Assembly (NCBI GenBank): GCA_947650285.1
Contig: CANTFL010000980.1
Location: 90,102 to 154,101, forward strand
Length of the DNA stretch: 64,000 nt
Direction of reading: 5' to 3'
Origin: Hyaloperonospora brassicae
Lineage: Eukaryota > Oomycota > Peronosporomycetes > Peronosporales > Peronosporaceae
Positions within the stretch are counted from its first letter, which is position 1; each line of letters opens with the position of its first letter. This document shows positions 3,001 to 55,300 of this stretch, piece after piece. The translations under genes were made by a program, and so were the position numbers. The notes beneath the pieces are model-generated. The model worked only from the letters and a program-made list of their open reading frames with translations, did no database searches and was not told where the DNA came from.

Positions 3001-4452
3001 CCAAAGTGACTATTCTTCCATCTAATATATTAATTGCGGCATTCATTGATGCTTCGGACAGAAAGAAATCGAAAATCCGACAGAAATACCGTCATGTTGT
3101 TTGTCTCACGCTTACAATCCGACCGTCCGTCGGCAGAAAACAAACTCGGTTATCTTGTTCACATCACAGCAGGCGCGTAAAATTATTCTTGTTTCTTTTT
3201 CGTTCGATTTCGCGATTAAAACTCAAAGGACGAAACACGTGTTGCGGTGGCTTGATCAAAAATTTGAAAAATATGATTCGCATTGGCAGTGTTGATATAT
3301 ATTTCGGTGTGTAAACTTCGACTAAAATCCCAAAGCTGCACCCGCTTACTCCAGCAGAGTCCTTCAGAGGCCGAGGTAAGTGCCGGTCTCGTCTGGTGCA
3401 GGATCTGTAACAGCCATTGCAGTTCTTCTTCAAACAAGCGTGTCGTTGGTCCAGGTCTGCGGCAACATGCACACTTAAAAGGGGCGCGCATTCGGTAGTA
3501 CGATAACGACGGATTCTTATTCTACCATCACACGTCTACAGAATGTCCTGTCGATCTCGATCCACTAACAACATAGATTTATACTTTCTGGGACCGCTTT
3601 CACTGGGATGGCAATACATGGATTTATGGGTCTGACAACAAGACCCTGAAGCGGGCCAAAAATGACCACACATACTCTTGATCTATCCGAAGTCTTTCCA
3701 TACAACGTACATGTCCGACCACATGCATTTGTTTATGACTTTTTAATGCTCAGTGGTACATCCTGTCTGAACTTTTATATCAACATTACAGAGATGAGCG
3801 ACTCAATTCTGCTCGCGTCATCCTACCTCGCTGTGGGGGTAAAAAATAGTTGAGTGTAAGCTTGACTTACGTCACTCGCCCTCATTTTGGCACGTTTATC
3901 AGCGGGCACACATTTCGTTTAGTTTGATTGTCGAGTCATGCCGAAAACTTGCTACGTCCAGTTCTTCTGCAAATCGCCTTCGTAAATGTGCCAATGACAT
4001 CCAGTCGATACTCGAATGTAAGTTGCCTGAGTTACGCAGTCTTTTTGAGCTAAAGTAAGTTGTATACACAGAGAAACTGCAACATCGCACTTTCTCCCTC
4101 TGGAACGTACAATACTTCATCGCTTTTATGGATTGCACCAAAGACGGTGGCCAATGCCAATGTGTCGATGACACCCATGCGGCAAGTGTGGTGAAGCGTC
4201 AAATAAAAATTGCGATATAAGAAGGGATCGCGCTCCAGTTGCATCCGAGCTGGCAGACGGTTGGCAACGCTGGTCCCACAACTGATCGGATCACGTACGA
4301 TGGACGATTAGACAGAACCGGACATCAGATCGGACAGGATGGGACGTGCGATATCGGGCCAAAGCACGACGGGCGTAGGGTACGAGTTATGGAGATGGGA
4401 TTATTGTCATGGGGGCGATTACACTAGCGATCAGTCGATCAAGAATGAAACC
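1..4452. other. Gene-poor region, no supported gene
   Basis: No reading frame here has a recognisable domain. The open stretches are short, occur on both strands and often begin at non-ATG codons; the longest, 2640-3314 on the plus strand, starts at TTG and shows no family motif or compositional sign of a gene. The sequence is moderately AT-rich and lacks the GC-rich codon pattern of the gene island starting at 10.57 kb. It is most simply old, heavily mutated repeat DNA, but I could not assign a repeat family. Confidence 0.5.
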
Positions 4453-4656
4453 GCGATCAGCAAGGCGATCACGATCAGGAAGATGATCGAGATCGTGATC
4501 ATTGACCAGGTATGTGATCGCGCTCAGGTTGATGTGGACCACACTATGTCTTTCGCGATCAGCAAGGCTATCACGATCAGGGAGGTGATCGAGATCGTGA
4601 TCAATGATGAGGTATTTGATCGCGATCAGGTTATGGTAGGTTATACCTTACTATAG
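4453..4656. repeat. 102-bp tandem repeat, two copies, GATC-rich
   Basis: Two adjacent copies begin at 4453 and 4555, both with GCGATCAGCAAGGC or its GCGATCAGCAAGGCT variant. Similarity is strong over about the first 80 bases and fades after that. Copy 1 contains the inverted pair GATCACGATC (4467-4476) and GATCGTGATC (4491-4500), which could form a 10-bp hairpin; copy 2 keeps all but one base of the left arm. A similar GATC-rich texture recurs near 60.9-61.3 kb, in the gag-proximal part of the gypsy relic. Confidence 0.8.
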
Positions 4657-7600
4657 GCGACCAGAAAGGCGACTGTCATCAGACAAGTAGATCAGGTGTG
4701 CGTCACGCTAGTACAAGATTGATAACTATTAGCGGGAACGACGCGTGGCCTGCGATGTTTAGTAAATGGAGATAGAGATAGGGTTGTTGGGTTGGGTTGG
4801 ATTACATTAAACATAATTCATTTTGCTTCAAAGTACACGTGTCGAATTCTCCACCGGGTGGATCATTGGCCACCCGACGTCAAGAAAAGTTACATACTTT
4901 AATCAGTGATATCCCTGGATTGTTTGACCAGGGATCGAGAACTCTCAAACAACACCCTAACTGCGACTGGACGCACGAAACCCTTTGTAGTTAAAAATAC
5001 AAGATCGCTAGACGGCTCAAGTGGTCAGAAGGCTCGCAAATCAATGTCTACATTTGGACAAGGCGATCTGTTACATATCAGGGTGACTCATATCGAGCAC
5101 CCTACAAGTATACAAGTGATCCCGTGAAAAATTCCACAAGATCACGTCAACTCCGATCGCGGTGTGAAGATTTCCACACTGAGATCAAACCTCGACCCCA
5201 TCTCAAACGCGGTCAAGTTTTCCATTGACATGAGTTCACTTGGAAGAGTGCAACCGGCCCCACCGATGGGTACACAAGGTGAGAAAGGCTATTAAGAACA
5301 CGGTATCAGATAATCTCCTCCGTTATTCGGTCGTCCGGGAGCCAGTGAAGAGTTGGGATCGACTCCTCAAAAGAGGGATCACCACTCCACCACACAAGCG
5401 CATCAGGTCTATAAATACCGTCTGCACCCAGCCTTCCAGGTCTGAATGCGCGTCTGCGGCGCGTAGGTGATCAAGGAAAAATGACAATCTGCTTGATTGA
5501 ATTAAAAGTCATTCTCCGTATAAAATTAAGCCAACGGAGCAACAGCGTATGAGGAGTGAACTTGTCATCGTCTCGCGGTCAAGTAGCTGGATGTATGCCA
5601 TTATGGTCTCACGGTGGACAATAGCTGCTAAAAGTTGCTGCAGCACAAGAGATACAAAAAGACGGCAGAGGACATTTTCTGAAACTGCCACACTGCATAA
5701 GTTGTCCGAAGTCAATGTATCAGCCATTTTACTGGAGAGTGTGCGACTTGCCCAGTCTTTTCGAACTTTTTTAGTCACTGCGCCAATCGCATCACTTCTC
5801 AAACTACACTTCGGTTAATTCTTATGTTGCACAAATCTTTTCAAGGTGATTGTGACGTCGCCATCAAAGAATTTGAACGCATCTGATTCATCCTTATGTT
5901 CGTCGGTCAGTAGCATTAATGGAGAGAGAGAAATGCAGCATTTTTCAGTGGATTCTTGGCTTATTTACAAGATAATGTAGCTACTTACTAGAAACGCGGT
6001 CTTTGGTAGCTGGAGACCATTTCAATACCTAGCATCGAGCTGCGGCTACCGCTGTCCGTGTATCCCGGCTTCATGCTTGCCTTACATTGTAGCTAAAGCC
6101 ACGAGAAAAACAACCATACGTTGGAGTCGATCACGATCCGCTGCCGCGACCATCGCTAATATCCTGGCGTAGAAGTTTTCAGGCATCTGGCACACTTACA
6201 ACATGTAAATAGATGACCATGAAGCTCCAATTCCACACCATGAGCCAGAGTAGTTACAGAATGATATTTTTGATTGTCATCCAGGTCGAGTGCGGTGGAT
6301 CTTCTTTGCTTAGCAATTAGTACTAAGAAGGGATCATACAGCATACTTCTACGTGATAATCAGAGTACTCGCCACATAAGTCGATGAATTTGGACTACTT
6401 TGTGAGCTCAACAACACCTTTATACTTCTCCCTTACAATTTTAGACGTAGCTTTCGCCAGTTTATATCTCAGTACCACATCTCCAGTTGACTCGCTGATT
6501 ACAGAAAAGTTCCATCCTCACGATTTTGTGACCTCACATCAACGGGAGACCGCCAAAGCTTTATATCATCTAGAATTTATCGGAAGCAGTATTGGCTTAA
6601 ATCGAAATACAATGTTTTTATCGGCTAAGGCTCAACATCTCTTTACTCGATATTATCTATGGAGTGGGTTATAATTGCTAACACGACAGTCGACAGACTA
6701 AACTCCTTATTTCTATGGTAGCTAATGTTGCCATCTCATGATTACTAAACTTCTTGGTGATACTAGGTGGAACCGCAACAAGATATGTCACGTGAGGTTC
6801 GATGTCAGGCATCATCTGGACCACCAAAATACTTACCGTGATACTATATGTGTGTCTTAGACTTAGTAATCTCTGTATTGCGTTGTTTTATCGCTTGTCA
6901 CTACATTCCTTACACATGTGTCGCTATCTATCCTTCTCCTAATGACATATGCATGTTCAAATGAAATGGAAAGCCCGTCTTCTGCCACTCTCGACGCGTC
7001 CGCCTCGTGTAAGTCGACCGCTCTAGTCAGCCTCGCGAGAATCCTCTCGGCTAGCAAGCAATGTTAGTAAGCACCAATTAGCGATCAATTTATATAGATT
7101 ATTTGGCAACAAAGTAATAAGCGGGATACAAATTGGTGATAAATAACCCACAAAAAACAATTCAGCGGAAGCTCACTTACTTTATTACCCACCTTAGGCA
7201 CTTCTACGTCGTTTGTGCCGATGCACCACAGTATCTTCGATCTTCCGACATGTGTTGGATTGATTTTACAAGTTGTAGTTGCTGCTATAAACTGCCTCTT
7301 CAGAAGTTCACCGTCATCCTTATTGTAGGGCTCTTCGCGCAACAAAAATGAGGCAATTTACTATTGTTTGATGGACATGGCACTAAATGCCTTGCATTTG
7401 AATTGGGCGCAGGGTGGCATGTTTGGTGTCACATCGGTCCGTGCGGGGATAAGATATACTGCACTACTAAGCTCAGCATTACACATTGGCTATGTGATGG
7501 TGACACATTCATCGTCGTAAGTGTAGATTGTCTTTATGTTCATAGATCAGTCGGTTGCATCGCCCCTAGTACCCCCCACCGTCTTGTGACGATCTGCTAA

Positions 7601-49009: not shown

Positions 49010-51780
49010 ACCGCAGCCTGATAATTCGACGAATCGGCTCCTGGTCCGAGAGATTGCCTAACAACACGCCAGGCTGTTGAGGGAGCCCTGTGAGATCTAG
49101 ACCAAACGCCCCGACGGTAAAGTCCGACTTCTTGAAAGTACTGAGCCATCGCCACCGATCAAGGAGATAGTCCAGTGTTGACGCGCACTATGTCAGTTCC
49201 AGTGTGTATGGCTTATCACGAACGGAACAGCCGCCACACACTCAGGTGCTGGAAATATAGATCTTGGGTAGCCCAATTCCAGATCGAAAAGCTTTTGTTC
49301 TTCAGACGATGCAGCATCTGAGCGTTGGTCGGAAAGGACGCTTGTATTCGTCGGATATCTCTCCAAGTGATCGAGGGTTTACCTTCAGAAATTACGTAAA
49401 AGTCCGTCTTCTCCACACGTTCACCCGTTAGTCTAGTTTATTTAGCATGACGCCCCCGGGAGATAATCTATTTCAGTTTGCTTCGGATGGGCTGCCATCG
49501 TCGACGTCCAGATCACATGTGTTCAACGCTCGTAAGTTCCGAATGCGCGCCAGAGTGGACAGGAGTCCCACTGGGTGTTTATTCGGCTGTAATGCATGCC
49601 GACATCGACTAGACTGGGGTTAACCGCATTCCATGCCCGTATCGAAATGTGTCAATGATGTACCGTCACTAGTAAGAAGCCAGTCATGAAATTGGTGCAC
49701 CGTCGAATACGCAAGCAATGAACCCGCCTCAAGTGCCCGATATTTCAGTGCTTGAAAGTTGTACAAAGGGCACGGCAAACGGACCCAAAATGCCGCCGCT
49801 TTGACATTGATTGGGTTTCCATGTCACTCGGGGGCAAAATCAAGACAATGTTACTCTTAATGATTACCAATACATGGTGTCTCCATTGAAGTTCCGTCCC
49901 TGCGCAAATTGATATCCGTTCCATAGATATACCTGACCCCATTGATGCTTCAGCCACGACACACCCTTAAACGTTGCGTGGAGCAGCTATCAATGGTTAA
50001 TTTGCCCTGACGACGCTACTTGAGCTCTCATCACCTAGTTTGTCATCAATTACCCGTCGATCATCAATTATGACACTACCGTTGCCATTATAGTCGACCT
50101 CGGCTCGCGACATAAAGGAGATAGATCGTCGGCAGATCGCCCTAACATCATTTTGGCAAAATAGCGACTCATTGGTGCCTCAGTTCCCGGAACTGCTGAG
50201 AATTTGGGCACCAATGGGTCGCTCAATATCAAGGGTGCTTGTTTTCCGTCCCAGAAGACGTGATGTGGGCTGTACCCGACTCTCTAAAGCCCCATAAGAA
50301 GTCACCAATGAGTAAGTCTCGCAATGAAACAGTCGTGGCTCACTGTACAAGTGCCATCGCCACCATGTGCATCATTTCTGTTCGAATACACTGTACCGCT
50401 AGACCACACTGATCGATAGGTGGTGTAGTCATCTCGGAAGGGGCCCCAGGGTTGGTACTTCTCGTTGTCAAGAACGCTTAAGACAAAGCATAGTCAATAT
50501 GCGCAACCGGGTACCTAGGGCGAGACGAGTCCAATAGTGCCTGCTAAGAAGCTTATTTGGGCACCGCGATGGAACTGAAAAGGATGAGCACGTTGTTTTA
50601 CCGTGATATCCTTCTCTCGGTGTAGGACAAGTCGGCTTCAGAGTGAACGAATGCACTTGTTCCAGTTATCAGCCACCGCATTATGTTGTCCCACCAGGAC
50701 ACCAATATACCGGCAATAGTCGCTGGAATAGTGCAGAGTGAGACCACATATGCCTAGAGGCAGTACAAATTCGCGATGTTAAAGATCAGTGACCTTTTTT
50801 GTTGCCCGATTTGTCAGGAGATCCGGTAGGTCAGCGAATTTATCGGTCGCATACGAAATTAGAGAATCTTGGTAAATACCTCGTAGTCGCTGTTGATTCG
50901 CGCGATAGGGCGATGATAGAGCGGCAAGACGAAGAACATCGATTTCTTGAAAGACTAAATATTAGCTTTACCTAACGATGTCGGTTACACGCTGCAATTA
51001 AACCATCTATTTTACAGTGTAGCGAGAACAGACGCGAGCGCATCTGCGTAATCTCTGTATCATATTGCTAATTTCATCAGTTCCCGCGGCTTTGACACAT
51101 CTGAATCTCTTGCAATCGCGCTCGCAATGCCTGGAGAAAAATCCGACGTCACGGAAGTGCCATCAACCCGGTCCGGCGGGCGGCCCTGGCAGGAAATGCG
51201 TCGATCGCGTCGGGGCAAGAAAAACGTCATAAAACGCTCTCATCCGTCGGCAATATCATCAGCCAATTCCTGAGACTGATTTGGCCCGGATGTAGCTTTC
51301 CTAGTCAGGCAAAGATAGCGACGTTGTATAACTTTAGTCGACGCCCGGACGTGAAAACGTCATAATTTCTCTTCTGGAGAGTATGTGCGCTGAACAAGAT
51401 GTCGCTTATTCCTCGTTCTCAGCAATAAATGTCGGCACTCCACAACATTACGTCAAAGCTCCGCAAGAGTGTAAGTTAATATCCAGTGCCCGATGGATCC
51501 AAAGCTCGCTGTGGATGAATCGATTGGCGTGGCCGTTGCCAGATTAGGACCACGAGATATGGAACCGAATTCGCTAAAGTGTTCGCTCCTTGCAAAACGC
51601 TTCCCTAATGTAATGTTACTCGGTGGCTCATCGAACTTTTAGAACAAGCTTTTGCGGCTCGAACATTGTATTGTTCTGCATGCCGTATCACACCTGCCTT
51701 TTCTCGTGCGGTGTTGATTGGTCCGCTGCATCATATTGCATCATCTGCTTCGTCGAGACTTTCGGTTTTAACGTCCGGGG
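49010..51780. other. Repeat-rich region between the two LTR-like segments
   Basis: No intact gene. Minus-strand fragments at about 49,216-49,416 (KPSITWRDIRRIQASFPTNA, then LKNKSFSIWNWATQDL) and 50,150-50,650 read like decayed transposon protein with frame changes, but I could not name the family. Composition is intermediate and stops are common in all frames. Confidence 0.4.
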
Positions 51781-52312
51781 TGTAACGGGGTTACACGTCG
51801 ACTGGTAGTCGACAATAGATGTGGTACACACAAGGGATGGGATCCCATTTAAATTAATATTAGAACACAAGTATCAATTGTTGAAGACTGATGTCTGTCA
51901 ACCATTGATTACAAGATCTTTGAATAGGTTTAATTAGGACATAAGTGAGTAGGTTATTTACTTTGTTCTAAGGTGTTCTTTTAGGTTAAAAGAAGAAATA
52001 AAATTCAGTTCCCATTTTGATCAACAAAAGACACGTGCCTCTCTGAGGCGTCTTTAGATCGTAAGGAAGTAGCAACGCCTTGTTAAGGCAGCTACTTCTT
52101 GTGCACTCAGTGCGTTTGATTCTGAATCGTTTGGTCCCCCTGGAACAGGGACCGTAAGCTCTCTGAGCTTGTTGACTCTTTGAGTCGGGTTCTTTGAACC
52201 AAACCTTAGCTCTCGGAGCTGTTGACTCTTTGATTCGGGTTCGTAGAACCAAAGTTGCTCATTGAGCGTTAAGTCTTTCTCTGACTTAAGGAGCTGTGTA
52301 GCTCCGCTACAC
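51781..52312. mobile_element. LTR-like segment beginning TGTAACGGGGTTACA, with dense hairpin array
   Basis: The left edge at 51,781 carries TGTAACGGGGTTACA (6-bp arms), followed by GTCGAC/GTCGAC and GGGAT/ATCCC hairpins. From 52,037 to 52,312 about fifteen hairpins follow one another, most with perfect 5- to 8-bp stems and 3-nt loops. The terminus resembles the LTR-like segment ending at 49,009, but the rest of the sequence is different, so they belong to different element families. From about 52,440 down to 52,058 the minus strand is an open frame that ends in TAA, with an in-frame 51-bp repeat. Part of this segment may therefore be retroelement coding sequence rather than LTR. Confidence 0.5.
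52066..52098. repeat. Nested perfect hairpin
   Basis: Outer arms GAAGTAGC (52,066-52,073) and GCTACTTC (52,091-52,098) enclose a second perfect stem GCCTT/AAGGC (52,077-52,081, 52,085-52,089) with loop GTT. It is the longest structure in the array. Confidence 0.9.
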
Positions 52313-55300
52313 GGTGGGTATTCTACGTCGTTGTATTCATCTTCGGTTGCGCTCCTTTCGTCACAATCTTCGTCATCTAAGTTAGTATTCGTAGGCGTGG
52401 TATCTTCGCCTACCGCGGATTCCCCCCTCCCCGCGATGTTCGTTCCATTGGCGAGGTTGATTATTCTCTAGATTTCAGCGTCATGCTTGCTCCATATTCG
52501 TCTCCAACTTCTTCTCCATAGTAAGCGTATGGCTTGATGTCGGCAGGTTTTGACCCGTCGTGTCATCATGTGACGCCTGCACCGTCCGCCTAATCGCTGA
52601 CTCATGGCGCCGATTCGTATCGCCGACCAAGTTGCAGCCTAAGGTGGAGCATAACATCTCATCATCCATCATAACGAATCGTGGTGATGTTCCTCTTCGC
52701 CGACCACGTCGCGGTCAGCTGGTACATTTGATATTTGCCTGTACCGACACCCTTGCTACTGCTTCCTCTTTATCGACCACGTCGCGCACCCCAGCGACGC
52801 CTATTCTTTTTCCTGGGCCGATGACTTTCGCCGGTGGTCCCGCTTCCGCTTCGTTGACCACTTAGATGTCGAGAGTTTGGGGTCAGTGCCGACGAATACT
52901 TCCCCGGTACAGCATTCTGGTAGGTTATCCTGATCTCTCTCGCCACGTGTTGCCGTCGGTGGCCCGCCGCCCAATTATCGTCGGAATTTGGTCTAAACTA
53001 GAACTCGTATCGTCAATAGACCATCACGTCGTCAACTTGAACTAAAGCTCCTGAGGCTCTTCCGAAGACAAACTGATCCACAGCGGCCGTCATCTGCTTC
53101 ACCATCCACATCGCTATGGAGGATAATAATTTGTCGTTATTCTGCATCCGTTCCTGAGCCACCGATTGCGGTCACTCCGCTCACGCTGGACCGGATTCCT
53201 GCATCTACGACCTTCGGTTCTTCTATCTTTAGTGTATACATTCTCTCCAGCGAGGCCACTTCTGGGTTGGTGTCTCCGTCGGTAACCTTTACCGTCCCCG
53301 TATTTGCATATCCGGCCGCACCAGCTAGAGAAATACTCGCTCTTTTCCGATAAAAAAAGAAAAAATACGTTCCTATTACGTATTCTTCTCCGTATACCGT
53401 TACCTTCCCTGATGTTTCATCTTTGGCCGTATCACATGGTGAAACACTCACTCATTTGTGAGTCATTGTTATATCTGGTGTTGCTTCTTTTTCCGCCTCA
53501 GCTGGCGGACTATTCATTGGTCCGCTGAAGAGGAGGCAACGCGTCCAACCTTCCACACCAAAAGCCAATCAAACTGTTGAGACATAGAGTGTCAGCACCT
53601 TTGTCGTATGTATCGCCTCATTCGCCGGCACCGAGTGTTTTTGGAACTGACTCGACATGACCCTCGGCACAGATAACTTCAAGTCTGCGCGAAATTATAG
53701 GTCTTCCGTACATCCTGCTTCGTTCTCGTGATAATTTAGTGGTCTCTCGGAAATTACGGTCGACTCCATCCATGCTTGGAGATCAAATTATCAGCAACTA
53801 ATAACATGGTTCGGTTCGATGTTGGTCGCGTATTACGTCCGCTTAGTCTCCAATCCGGCATTGTCTCTGGGTTTGAAGTCTTACGTCTCTCCCACTCCCG
53901 TCACTCGTACTGAGATCTCGCCTTTGCCGAAGATTTTAACCTGTTGCATCCTTATCAGCAAACTCCAGCGTTGTTCTCTTCGAAGCCTGAACTCATGTGT
54001 GGGACCAAGCTCGACGAATCGCAATCAATGCTCGAATTGCTCAACGGCCTTCCCAGTCGGAGTCTCCCTTAGACCCGGTAACTGACACGCAAATCGGATG
54101 GAGTGGGGCAGACGTGCTTTAAGGGAAGCTAGCCCTTTTCTTTGCTACCTCAAGAATTTTCGTGGGCTTATATGAACGTATGCATTGGAAATTGGAGTCG
54201 AGTGTTTTGATGGGTATGCACCCTGATATATATCCATCCTGATCCACAGAGACTTGTCTCGAGTTTAGGCAGCTTGGACTGAGTATACTGTCGCTCGCAA
54301 ACGTCGCGGGGACATTCTGTGGGTGGTTGCGAAGAACTAAAAACAAGCCCTGCAGGATACAGTATCTGTGAAGTCTTCGCTGGAGCCTGCCTCTCGAGTC
54401 GACCCCACCTTTTTTTCCAACCTTCGATGCATGTTTACCCGATCATGAGCTACGTGTGTGCCGACTAGTGTTGACTGGAAAATCGAGCTTGATGCGCTCG
54501 AATAGGCTAAACATTGGCGTGTATGGCGGTCGACTCGCTCATCGGAGCACCCATACAACACGTGTTTTCGACTATGCAATCCGTTATTCATGGAATTTGA
54601 ACCAGATAGTGTTTCTGAGATCGACGACGAATGTATAATCGTCGCAGATGTCGACGATAATGAGGCTGTTTAAACCGGTATGCGCACTGCGCGCTTGATT
54701 TAAAAATCGTGATGATCCTAGAACGCCTACATAGGGATTGGCTCCTGTGTATGTACGATACTCGTGGGCACTTTTGCGCCGCTGGGTCTATTAATTGTAA
54801 TACCACGGACGGCACCAGGTCGTAGTGGCGTGCGATATCAACCAGATTAAACAGGTATCATATGACCCCGATCGTTTATTTTTAGGTTACCATAGATTTA
54901 ACTTTGCTACCCGCAACCAAACCTTCTCTCTCAATAATCTAACAGACGATCCACAACCGGTTACTGATCCCTCTGCTCACGAGCTCGATAATCGACAGGT
55001 TTTGCAGTTTTTCGTCTATACCTCAAGGTGTGTCCTGAAGCTGTATATCGAAGGCTCCAGCACATCAATCGCTGACATTTAGTCGTTTCTCCCTGGCTTC
55101 GTGCTATAATTACTATTATCAAATTCATCTTTATTTACATGGAACAATGCATCTTTTACCAGTAACCTCACTTTCATTCTGCTTAATAGTATTCGCAAAA
55201 ACTGAGTGCGTGTCGTGCTAGTCTTCCTACCTTTATTCTGAGAATTGTACCATTTGCAGACGATCCTTCAATTTTTTTCTCCTTACGTAATCGTATAGTT

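Follow-up and report, generated by a model that had tools for sequence, protein, structure and literature searches.

What places about fifteen short hairpins back to back, most of them with 3-nt loops, at one point in the genome of Hyaloperonospora brassicae? The initial annotation of the window (the whole stretch of 64,000 nt analysed here) described this array at 52037-52312, and regarded it as unexpected by chance and as not derived from one ancestral repeat. All 14 hairpin items of that description are present in the sequence at their coordinates: GCCTC-TCT-GAGGC (52037-52049), a nested structure (52066-52098), GCAC-TCA-GTGC (52103-52113), GATT-CTG-AATC (52118-52128), CCTG-GAA-CAGG within GGTC/GACC (52133-52153), AAGCTC-TCT-GAGCTT (52156-52170), GACTC-TTT-GAGTC (52174-52186), GGTTC-TTT-GAACC (52188-52200), AGCTC-TCG-GAGCT (52208-52220), a one-mismatch copy that forms 4 of 5 pairs, as had been described (52224-52236), GGTTC-GTA-GAACC (52238-52250), GCTC-ATT-GAGC (52257-52267), TTAAGTC/GACTTAA (52269-52289) and GTGTAGC-TCC-GCTACAC (52296-52312). 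When nested stems are counted separately, 15 of the 16 stems checked are perfect.

The array holds nine loop-3 stems of at least 5 bp against 0.33 expected, a number reached in none of 2000 dinucleotide shuffles, and 13 of at least 4 bp against 1.26 expected (again 0/2000), so the shuffled controls agree with the view that it is not expected by chance. For loops of 4, 6 and 7 nt no clear excess over the dinucleotide shuffles was seen in the array; nine 4-bp stems with 5-nt loops are in excess (0/2000 shuffles), and these are mostly loop-3 stems minus their inner pair. In a scan of the 64-kb window by 276-nt windows with a step of 46, the richest in loop-3 stems starts at 52027, while every other one holds at most three, those overlapping the LTR described below aside, and the loop-3 excess is absent from the rest of the window. 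Folded as RNA, the array gives z = -3.85, and its complement z = -6.33. The statement that the stems do not come from one ancestral repeat holds for most of them, and for about three hairpins fewer than was thought, because 52208-52250 is a tandem copy of 52157-52203 and several related LTRs have a single unit.

The array is not a stand-alone feature: it makes up the 3' half of an LTR of 531 bp that belongs to an abundant Ty3/gypsy retrotransposon. We are practically certain that 51781-52311 is the LTR of a Gypsy element. The limits 52037-52312 were therefore too narrow, since the LTR starts at 51781 and there are, in its first part, no fewer than five further hairpins with 3-nt loops, four of them with stems of 5-8 bp. 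What the initial annotation had missed is that the array belongs to the LTR of a Gypsy element present in very many copies, that one part of it is a duplicated unit, and that hairpins of this kind pervade the remainder of the element and its relatives. The features of the LTR are these:

51781..52311, + strand: isolated Ty3/gypsy LTR, TGTAAC...GCTACA, defined by same-strand LTR pairs elsewhere and by self-comparison boundaries
51781..51795, + strand: 5'-terminal LTR hairpin TGTAAC-ggg-GTTACA, 6/6 pairs
51797..51813, + strand: U3 hairpin GTCGACT-ggt-AGTCGAC, read from the sequence
51820..51846, + strand: U3 hairpins TGTG-gta-CACA and GGGAT-ggg-ATCCC, read from the sequence
51976..51994, + strand: U3 hairpin TTCTTTTA-ggt-TAAAAGAA, 8/8 pairs, missing from some LTR types
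51997..52002, + strand: AATAAA, a putative poly(A)-signal-like motif, read from the sequence
52005..52019, + strand: INR-like TCAGTTC and FPR-like CATTTTG, putative start of R by motif comparison
52037..52312, + strand: hairpin array, putative R-U5 leader, from shuffles, stem check and fold z of -3.85; its last base, 52312, falls just beyond the LTR end
52066..52098, + strand: helix H2, long and outer, with 52077-52089 nested inside, from LTR comparison and pair covariation (E ~0.05)
52157..52253, + strand: tandem duplication of a 50-bp three-hairpin unit, from TRF and direct repeat; core identity of the copies 31/34 bases
52296..52312, + strand: 3'-terminal LTR hairpin GTGTAGC-tcc-GCTACAC, read from the sequence and overlapped by an alternative hairpin, GGAGCT-gtgt-AGCTCC (52290-52305)

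Both termini of the LTR are thus hairpins, TGTAAC-ggg-GTTACA (51781-51795) and TGTAGC-tcc-GCTACA (52297-52311), so that the integrase-facing ends have an extended TGTARC motif in common.

The identity of the element rests on its other copies. The segment 51950-52400, used as a query against the organism's own 100.6-Mb genome assembly, gave at least 42 matches: two at 100%, which are the window itself and a near-copy (L002), and, among the matches listed, 38 at 93-97% identity, the ends of which all lie no more than a few bases from 52312, together with two weaker pieces. Among the LTR matches are several same-strand pairs about 7.2 kb apart. Self-comparison delimited 11 elements, in which repeat pairs of 461-541 nt with TG...CA ends, 95.2-99.4% identical, stand around 6.55-6.77 kb, and three of the 11 (L010, L011, L023) have a 5-bp target-site duplication. 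The window copy has no recognisable target-site duplication and no internal region downstream. Pfam matches above the curated cut-off were gag, RNaseH and SH3_Tf2-1 in L009, and RT_RNaseH_2 (3962-4522) followed by Integrase_H2C2 (4633-5601) in L028, where RVT_1 and rve score below it; the order is that of Ty3/gypsy elements, because in L028 RNaseH precedes the integrase. A candidate primer binding site, TGGTAGC, lies within a few bases 3' of the LTR in 16 of 19 loci. Of 4332 candidate sites for an RNaseH query, the 150 that were scored are all at least 83% identical, and 19 of 20 loci picked by pol position have a homologous LTR (L050 has none). Protein relatives of the L080 family, described below, were found among the best 120 of 1853 in Peronospora (best 97%), Phytophthora, Globisporangium and Aphanomyces, and no confirmed relative of the L080 RT was found in Viral_contigs. 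A known structured RNA family was considered and rejected, since a comparison of 51700-52500 with Rfam gave no match up to E = 1.

Some copies are arranged in unusual ways. Window 50450-53900 is repeated at 99.3% in L002 (G000:C336:3765-7215), as a segmental duplication or an uncollapsed haplotype. The stretch 50441-52309 (~1.9 kb, to the LTR end) is repeated at 94% in L004 (G000:C613), ~90 kb away on the same contig, where the LTR, unlike the window copy, runs into internal element sequence; L092, the stretch meant to contain the 3' LTR of the L004 element, gave no window match. Two loci arranged alike, L012 (C174) and L015 (C818), have directly upstream of the intact LTR a second, 3'-truncated one, 71-74% identical to the window LTR. 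At L018 (C849), LTR pieces in opposite orientations lie within ~0.8 kb in a palindromic arrangement.

Read from its motifs, the array is probably the R-U5 leader of the element RNA, which it would be if transcription begins at the INR/FPR-like site. The oomycete INR and FPR are given as YCAYTYY and MWTTTNC in the cited account (PMC3599244), from which TCAGTTC and CATTTTG differ by one mismatch each. Between the putative start and the gag ATG, 311-380 nt, there is no ATG in 12 of the 13 copies with both anchors and one ATG in the other (17 copies were examined, four of them without an anchor). In each of three copies read, a hairpin overlaps the putative gag ATG with its 3' arm. Most loop-3 stems in the 3' half of the LTR (218/274) close with C-G, mostly as C-UYU-G, the commonest loops being TCT (98) and TTT (54); the loops of U3 hairpins are G-rich.

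How far the stems are kept as the sequence changes was followed in one LTR per locus (47/59, L002 being dropped as a near-duplicate of the window), in an R-U5 alignment of 46 LTRs (L022 dropped) and in a comparison of LTR types that excluded two extra 3'-truncated copies. Helix H2 is built from other letters in other LTR types (AAGGA/TCCTT, AAGAG/CTCTT, GAGGAC/GTCCTC), most of which, by inspection, have a 5'-side bulge; the window copy has eight straight pairs. In several other LTRs the counterpart of the U3 hairpin at 51797..51813 is GTCGGCT-ggt-AGCCGAC, which differs by a double change from A-T to G-C. One copy, L053, combines a left H2 arm from one LTR type with a right arm from a second type, and its helix is therefore unable to form; it is likely a recombinant between subfamilies. 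Covariation of the stems, which had been proposed as a check, was found in part: in our own tree-aware test of 69 R-U5 pairs in the 46 LTRs, one H2 pair gave E = 0.047 and one H3 pair E = 0.053 of 69, while many stems are too conserved in sequence for testing. A second H2 pair gave E = 0.43. The support from covariation within the LTR is modest, because with partners shifted by +1 the same number of pairs falls below p = 0.01 (three, with one below p = 0.001). Nor were R-U5 stem columns slower to change than the remaining columns (p = 0.68); a possible reason is that the majority of copies are dead and in decay.

We have very little doubt that the hairpin enrichment is real and runs through the whole element, its leader, gag and pol included. 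In six elements loop-3 stems number 19.7 per kb in the LTR and 6.1 per kb internally, compared with 1.3 in 12 Copia loci, 1.1 in 10 MULE loci and 1.2 in the rest of the window. Across 11 elements the 5' LTR has 18.9 per kb in its 3' part, every internal 600-nt bin has 2.9-10.0, and the flanks have 0.6 and 1.5. In the coding DNA of the window-LTR family, L080 and L085, hairpins are more numerous than in synonymous-codon controls. For the window-LTR family, six elements supplied 30 open stretches with a length of 150 codons or more, in any sense frame and with some overlap: 19 exceed all 100 synonymous-codon shuffles in loop 3-4 stems, and the weakest is reached by 41 of the 100.

Our results also show that several related Gypsy families carry the hairpin trait in graded strength. 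A Gypsy element at C14:88631-96315, with 42-61% protein identity (best alignments) to six copies of the window-LTR family, has in its 7.7 kb 96 non-overlapping perfect hairpins versus 17.5 expected from the window, and its 866-codon frame (C14/L080) has 96 stem positions versus a mean of 21.7 and a maximum of 37 in 100 synonymous-codon shuffles. In a third family (L085, L086, L088) there are 16.8-18.2 hairpins per kb. The pol frame of L085 has 40 perfect hairpins in 2.2 kb, 17 of them within the RT-RNaseH part, and 50 perfect 8-bp stem positions versus 0.4 after synonymous-codon shuffling (60 shuffles); in another 1.4 kb of that element the density is 15.7 per kb. L085 and L088 have open frames in which RT and RNaseH score above cut-off, and the frame of L086 is not open. 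Perfect stems of at least 6 bp number 18.2 per kb in L085, 11.1 in L080, 6.4 in L084 and 5.5 in L091, and in the controls 1.4-3.2 (six other RT loci) and 2.3-2.7 (Copia, MULE and window). Stem length has its mode at 8 bp in the L085 family and the C14 element, no stem longer than 11 bp occurs in the elements counted, and the loops of L080 and L085 range over 3-12 nt. A hairpin bias of the host genome as a whole was rejected, the rest of the window being flat over loop sizes 0-15, and so was a general property of transposons, since no enrichment was seen in the loci sampled (12 of Copia, 10 of MULE and six further RT loci).

Folding energy, computed on the sense strand only, follows the same families: the mean folding-energy difference (MFED) is 48.6% in L085 (2.2 kb), 17.6% in the C14 element and 11.6% in the window-LTR family (2 elements), with controls at 1.0-4.0% and L084, at 3.8%, inside the control range. 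A control locus, L078 (C571, a 2225-aa frame), has an MFED of 10.3% against synonymous shuffles and no short-hairpin excess; its folding energy perhaps reflects structure of another kind. Sites of 21 nt are less accessible in L085, L080, L088 and L084 than in 30 of 30 synonymous shuffles. In the accessibility controls, from which one Copia locus without an open frame was excluded, the sites are matched in closure by 2, 2 and 18 of the 30 shuffles, L078 and L079 being less accessible than 28 of 30.

Are the hairpins kept by selection, or are they the product of mutation? The initial annotation had named both a row of RNA stems and a hairpin-generating mutation process, and both are still alive: the slower change of coding stems in the L085 group favours structure, and the lack of a clear sense-strand (G-U) preference keeps mutation in play. 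We consider it reasonably probable that the hairpins are maintained by selection rather than by mutation alone, because coding stems change more slowly, the stems are encoded synonymously, their length is limited and a helix is rebuilt by double changes. Divergence in the L085 group is 1.94% in stems versus 4.51% in their surroundings, 0.95 versus 2.47% and 1.19 versus 3.44%, that is, 2-3 times slower. At third positions, 5/196 changed in stems versus 36/453 elsewhere (p 0.008), and 3/175 versus 25/479 (p 0.051); Fisher p values in this group are 0.006, 0.046, 0.008, 0.008 and 0.051, from comparisons that overlap. In the older full elements of the window-LTR family stems are slightly slower in five of six comparisons and faster in one (18.9 versus 16.5%).

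The mutational reading stays open because no sense-strand preference is clear: the antisense strand folds about equally well or better. Among single defects in near-perfect stems, counted without redundancy, G-U and A-C number 5 and 5 in L085, 7 and 2 in the C14 element and 9 and 11 in the window-LTR family, and such rough parity counts against selection, since selection at the RNA level would by itself be expected to favour G-U. For R-U5, 11 G-U and 5 A-C defect types recur in three or more of the 46 copies when the misaligned H4 is left aside (12 and 7 with it), and those in 1-2 of the 46 copies are 32 G-U and 33 A-C, H4 included. Over long times hairpin positions are not kept: distant families have none in common (none of 33 L085 hairpins is perfect in L080), and 4/16 L080 hairpins are perfect in L084 (4/8 in the reverse direction). 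Some hairpins span codons of conserved residues, such as those of the RT motif DGFYQIL, and 6 of 34 lie in stretches at least 80% residue-identical to L080. Residue conservation is 46.8% in stem codons versus 58.3% elsewhere; the structure may cost protein changes, or the stems may sit where the protein is lax.

Fold-back template switching, in which the RT or DNA repair copies one arm of an imperfect hairpin onto the other at sites where the protein allows it and leaves a functionless trace, would suit perfect Watson-Crick stems with short loops, the absence of a clear strand polarity, G-U and A-C defects in comparable numbers and a trait that tracks the RT clade within our sample. A process of this kind is described for DNA replication (PMC8794818), and the RNA hairpins of that account are alike in their perfect inverted repeats and stem repair; they concern RNA genes, whereas here the hairpins are element-wide in retroelements, with changes on both arms. 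Between L080 and L084, 12 of 15 hairpins differ, with 37 and 35 changes per arm (chi-square p 0.55), so that a one-arm templated origin is unsupported; individual hairpins are lopsided, with 4 versus 0 and 1 versus 5 changes per arm. Further points against it are that the stems of L085, L086 and L088 (96-98% alike) show single changes, with no double changes seen, and are still slower, that stem length has a mode of 8 bp (L085, C14 element) and a maximum of 11, and that the one-sided H2 bulge is kept in most LTR types, by inspection, despite pair changes. We regard such an origin as unlikely, although not far-fetched. It is also unlikely that the hairpins are a packaging code, with Gag/nucleocapsid binding dispersed stem-loops and the C-UYU-G apex of the LTR as recognition motif. 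The C-G closures (218/274), the TCT and TTT loops and the greatest density in the 3' part of the LTR would fit it, as would the packaging and dimerisation signals placed in the structured 5' ends of Ty1, Ty3 and HIV-1 in the cited accounts (PMC5454406, PMC11381356). The motif is not general, because U3 loops are G-rich and L080 and L085 loops span 3-12 nt.

A function at the DNA level, as cruciforms or as hairpins of single-stranded cDNA in integration, replication or chromatin, would leave no wobble preference and would account for the strand symmetry and for the hairpins at both LTR ends, which are the sites of integrase action. It gives no reason for thousands of ORF bases, and stems of 6-11 bp with short loops make poor cruciforms in duplex DNA; we think it improbable. 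It is hardly credible that the LTR is an ordinary one, in which the short palindromes serve as transcription-factor sites or arose by chance. Palindromic sites do occur in LTRs, but none of the 2000 shuffles reached the observed number and the excess runs through the coding sequence of several families, which refutes this account as a full explanation.

Comparison with known systems places the element among Ty3/gypsy elements, including those with oomycete Tf2-like polyproteins, with which it shares the LTR pair with TG...CA ends, gag, RNaseH followed by integrase and some target-site duplications; it differs from them in the dense, short, perfect hairpins of its LTR, leader and ORFs. No report of hairpin-filled LTR elements, in oomycetes or elsewhere, was found in the open literature of published papers, as represented mostly by titles and the openings of abstracts. 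The leaders of Ty1 and Ty3 also have a structured 5' end upstream of gag (PMC5454406, PMC11381356), which in those accounts consists of a few specific structures and not of a row of ~12-15 short hairpins, mostly with triloops. Persistent RNA viruses with genome-scale ordered RNA structure (GORS) are alike in a genome-long excess of folding energy, in its synonymous encoding and in strong variation between related groups. An account of murine norovirus gives an MFED of 9.1% as typical of GORS, with an occurrence that varies strongly between virus groups (PMC3695492). The values here, 11.6-48.6% in three families, come from a different shuffle, and many perfect stem-loops of up to 11 bp without clear sense-strand bias also set them apart. 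GORS belongs to the genomes of persistent RNA viruses and the element here is an integrated LTR element, so that the likeness is one of resemblance, not membership; we read the hairpinned genome as resembling GORS in a more extreme form.

On balance we lean towards the explanation that the array is the R-U5 half of a high-copy Ty3/gypsy LTR whose hairpins are selected element-wide. Selection on the nucleic acid of the element would put much of its genome within or beside a short stem-loop, and since the locations of hairpins are free to move, their density outweighs any single one of them. The stems at the 5' end would form a leader nearly free of AUG, in which a scanning ribosome could melt the stems singly. 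What this structure does is the least certain part. The function that we favour, and tentatively so, is a shield against RNAi: few sites of 20-25 nt would lie open to host small RNAs, and each stem would be too short for Dicer, which short stems would escape. The closed 21-nt sites in four frames of the clade fit such a shield, without proof of it. In the account cited (PMC3804510), small RNAs of 25/26 nt cover the transposons of Phytophthora, and 21-nt ones come from inverted repeats. After the shield, packaging by Gag would be the next candidate.

We propose as a possibility, still somewhat doubtful, that a clade of oomycete Ty3/gypsy elements carries a genome-wide hairpin code as heritable structural armour against small-RNA silencing, at a density above the GORS figure quoted. 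Leader, gag and pol would be written in this code by way of synonymous codons and tolerated amino-acid changes, and in the densest families a perfect stem-loop of 6-11 bp, below Dicer length, would stand roughly every 50-100 nt. If this is true, a second layer of information would lie over a whole retroelement, with protein and dense nucleic-acid structure in one sequence, and GORS, whose function in RNA viruses is debated, would extend to transposons at a strength that can be tested. If the hairpins are mutational instead, a reverse transcriptase would be rewriting its own genome into hairpins. Whether selection or mutation is responsible, either outcome would inform how RNA stems originate and persist.
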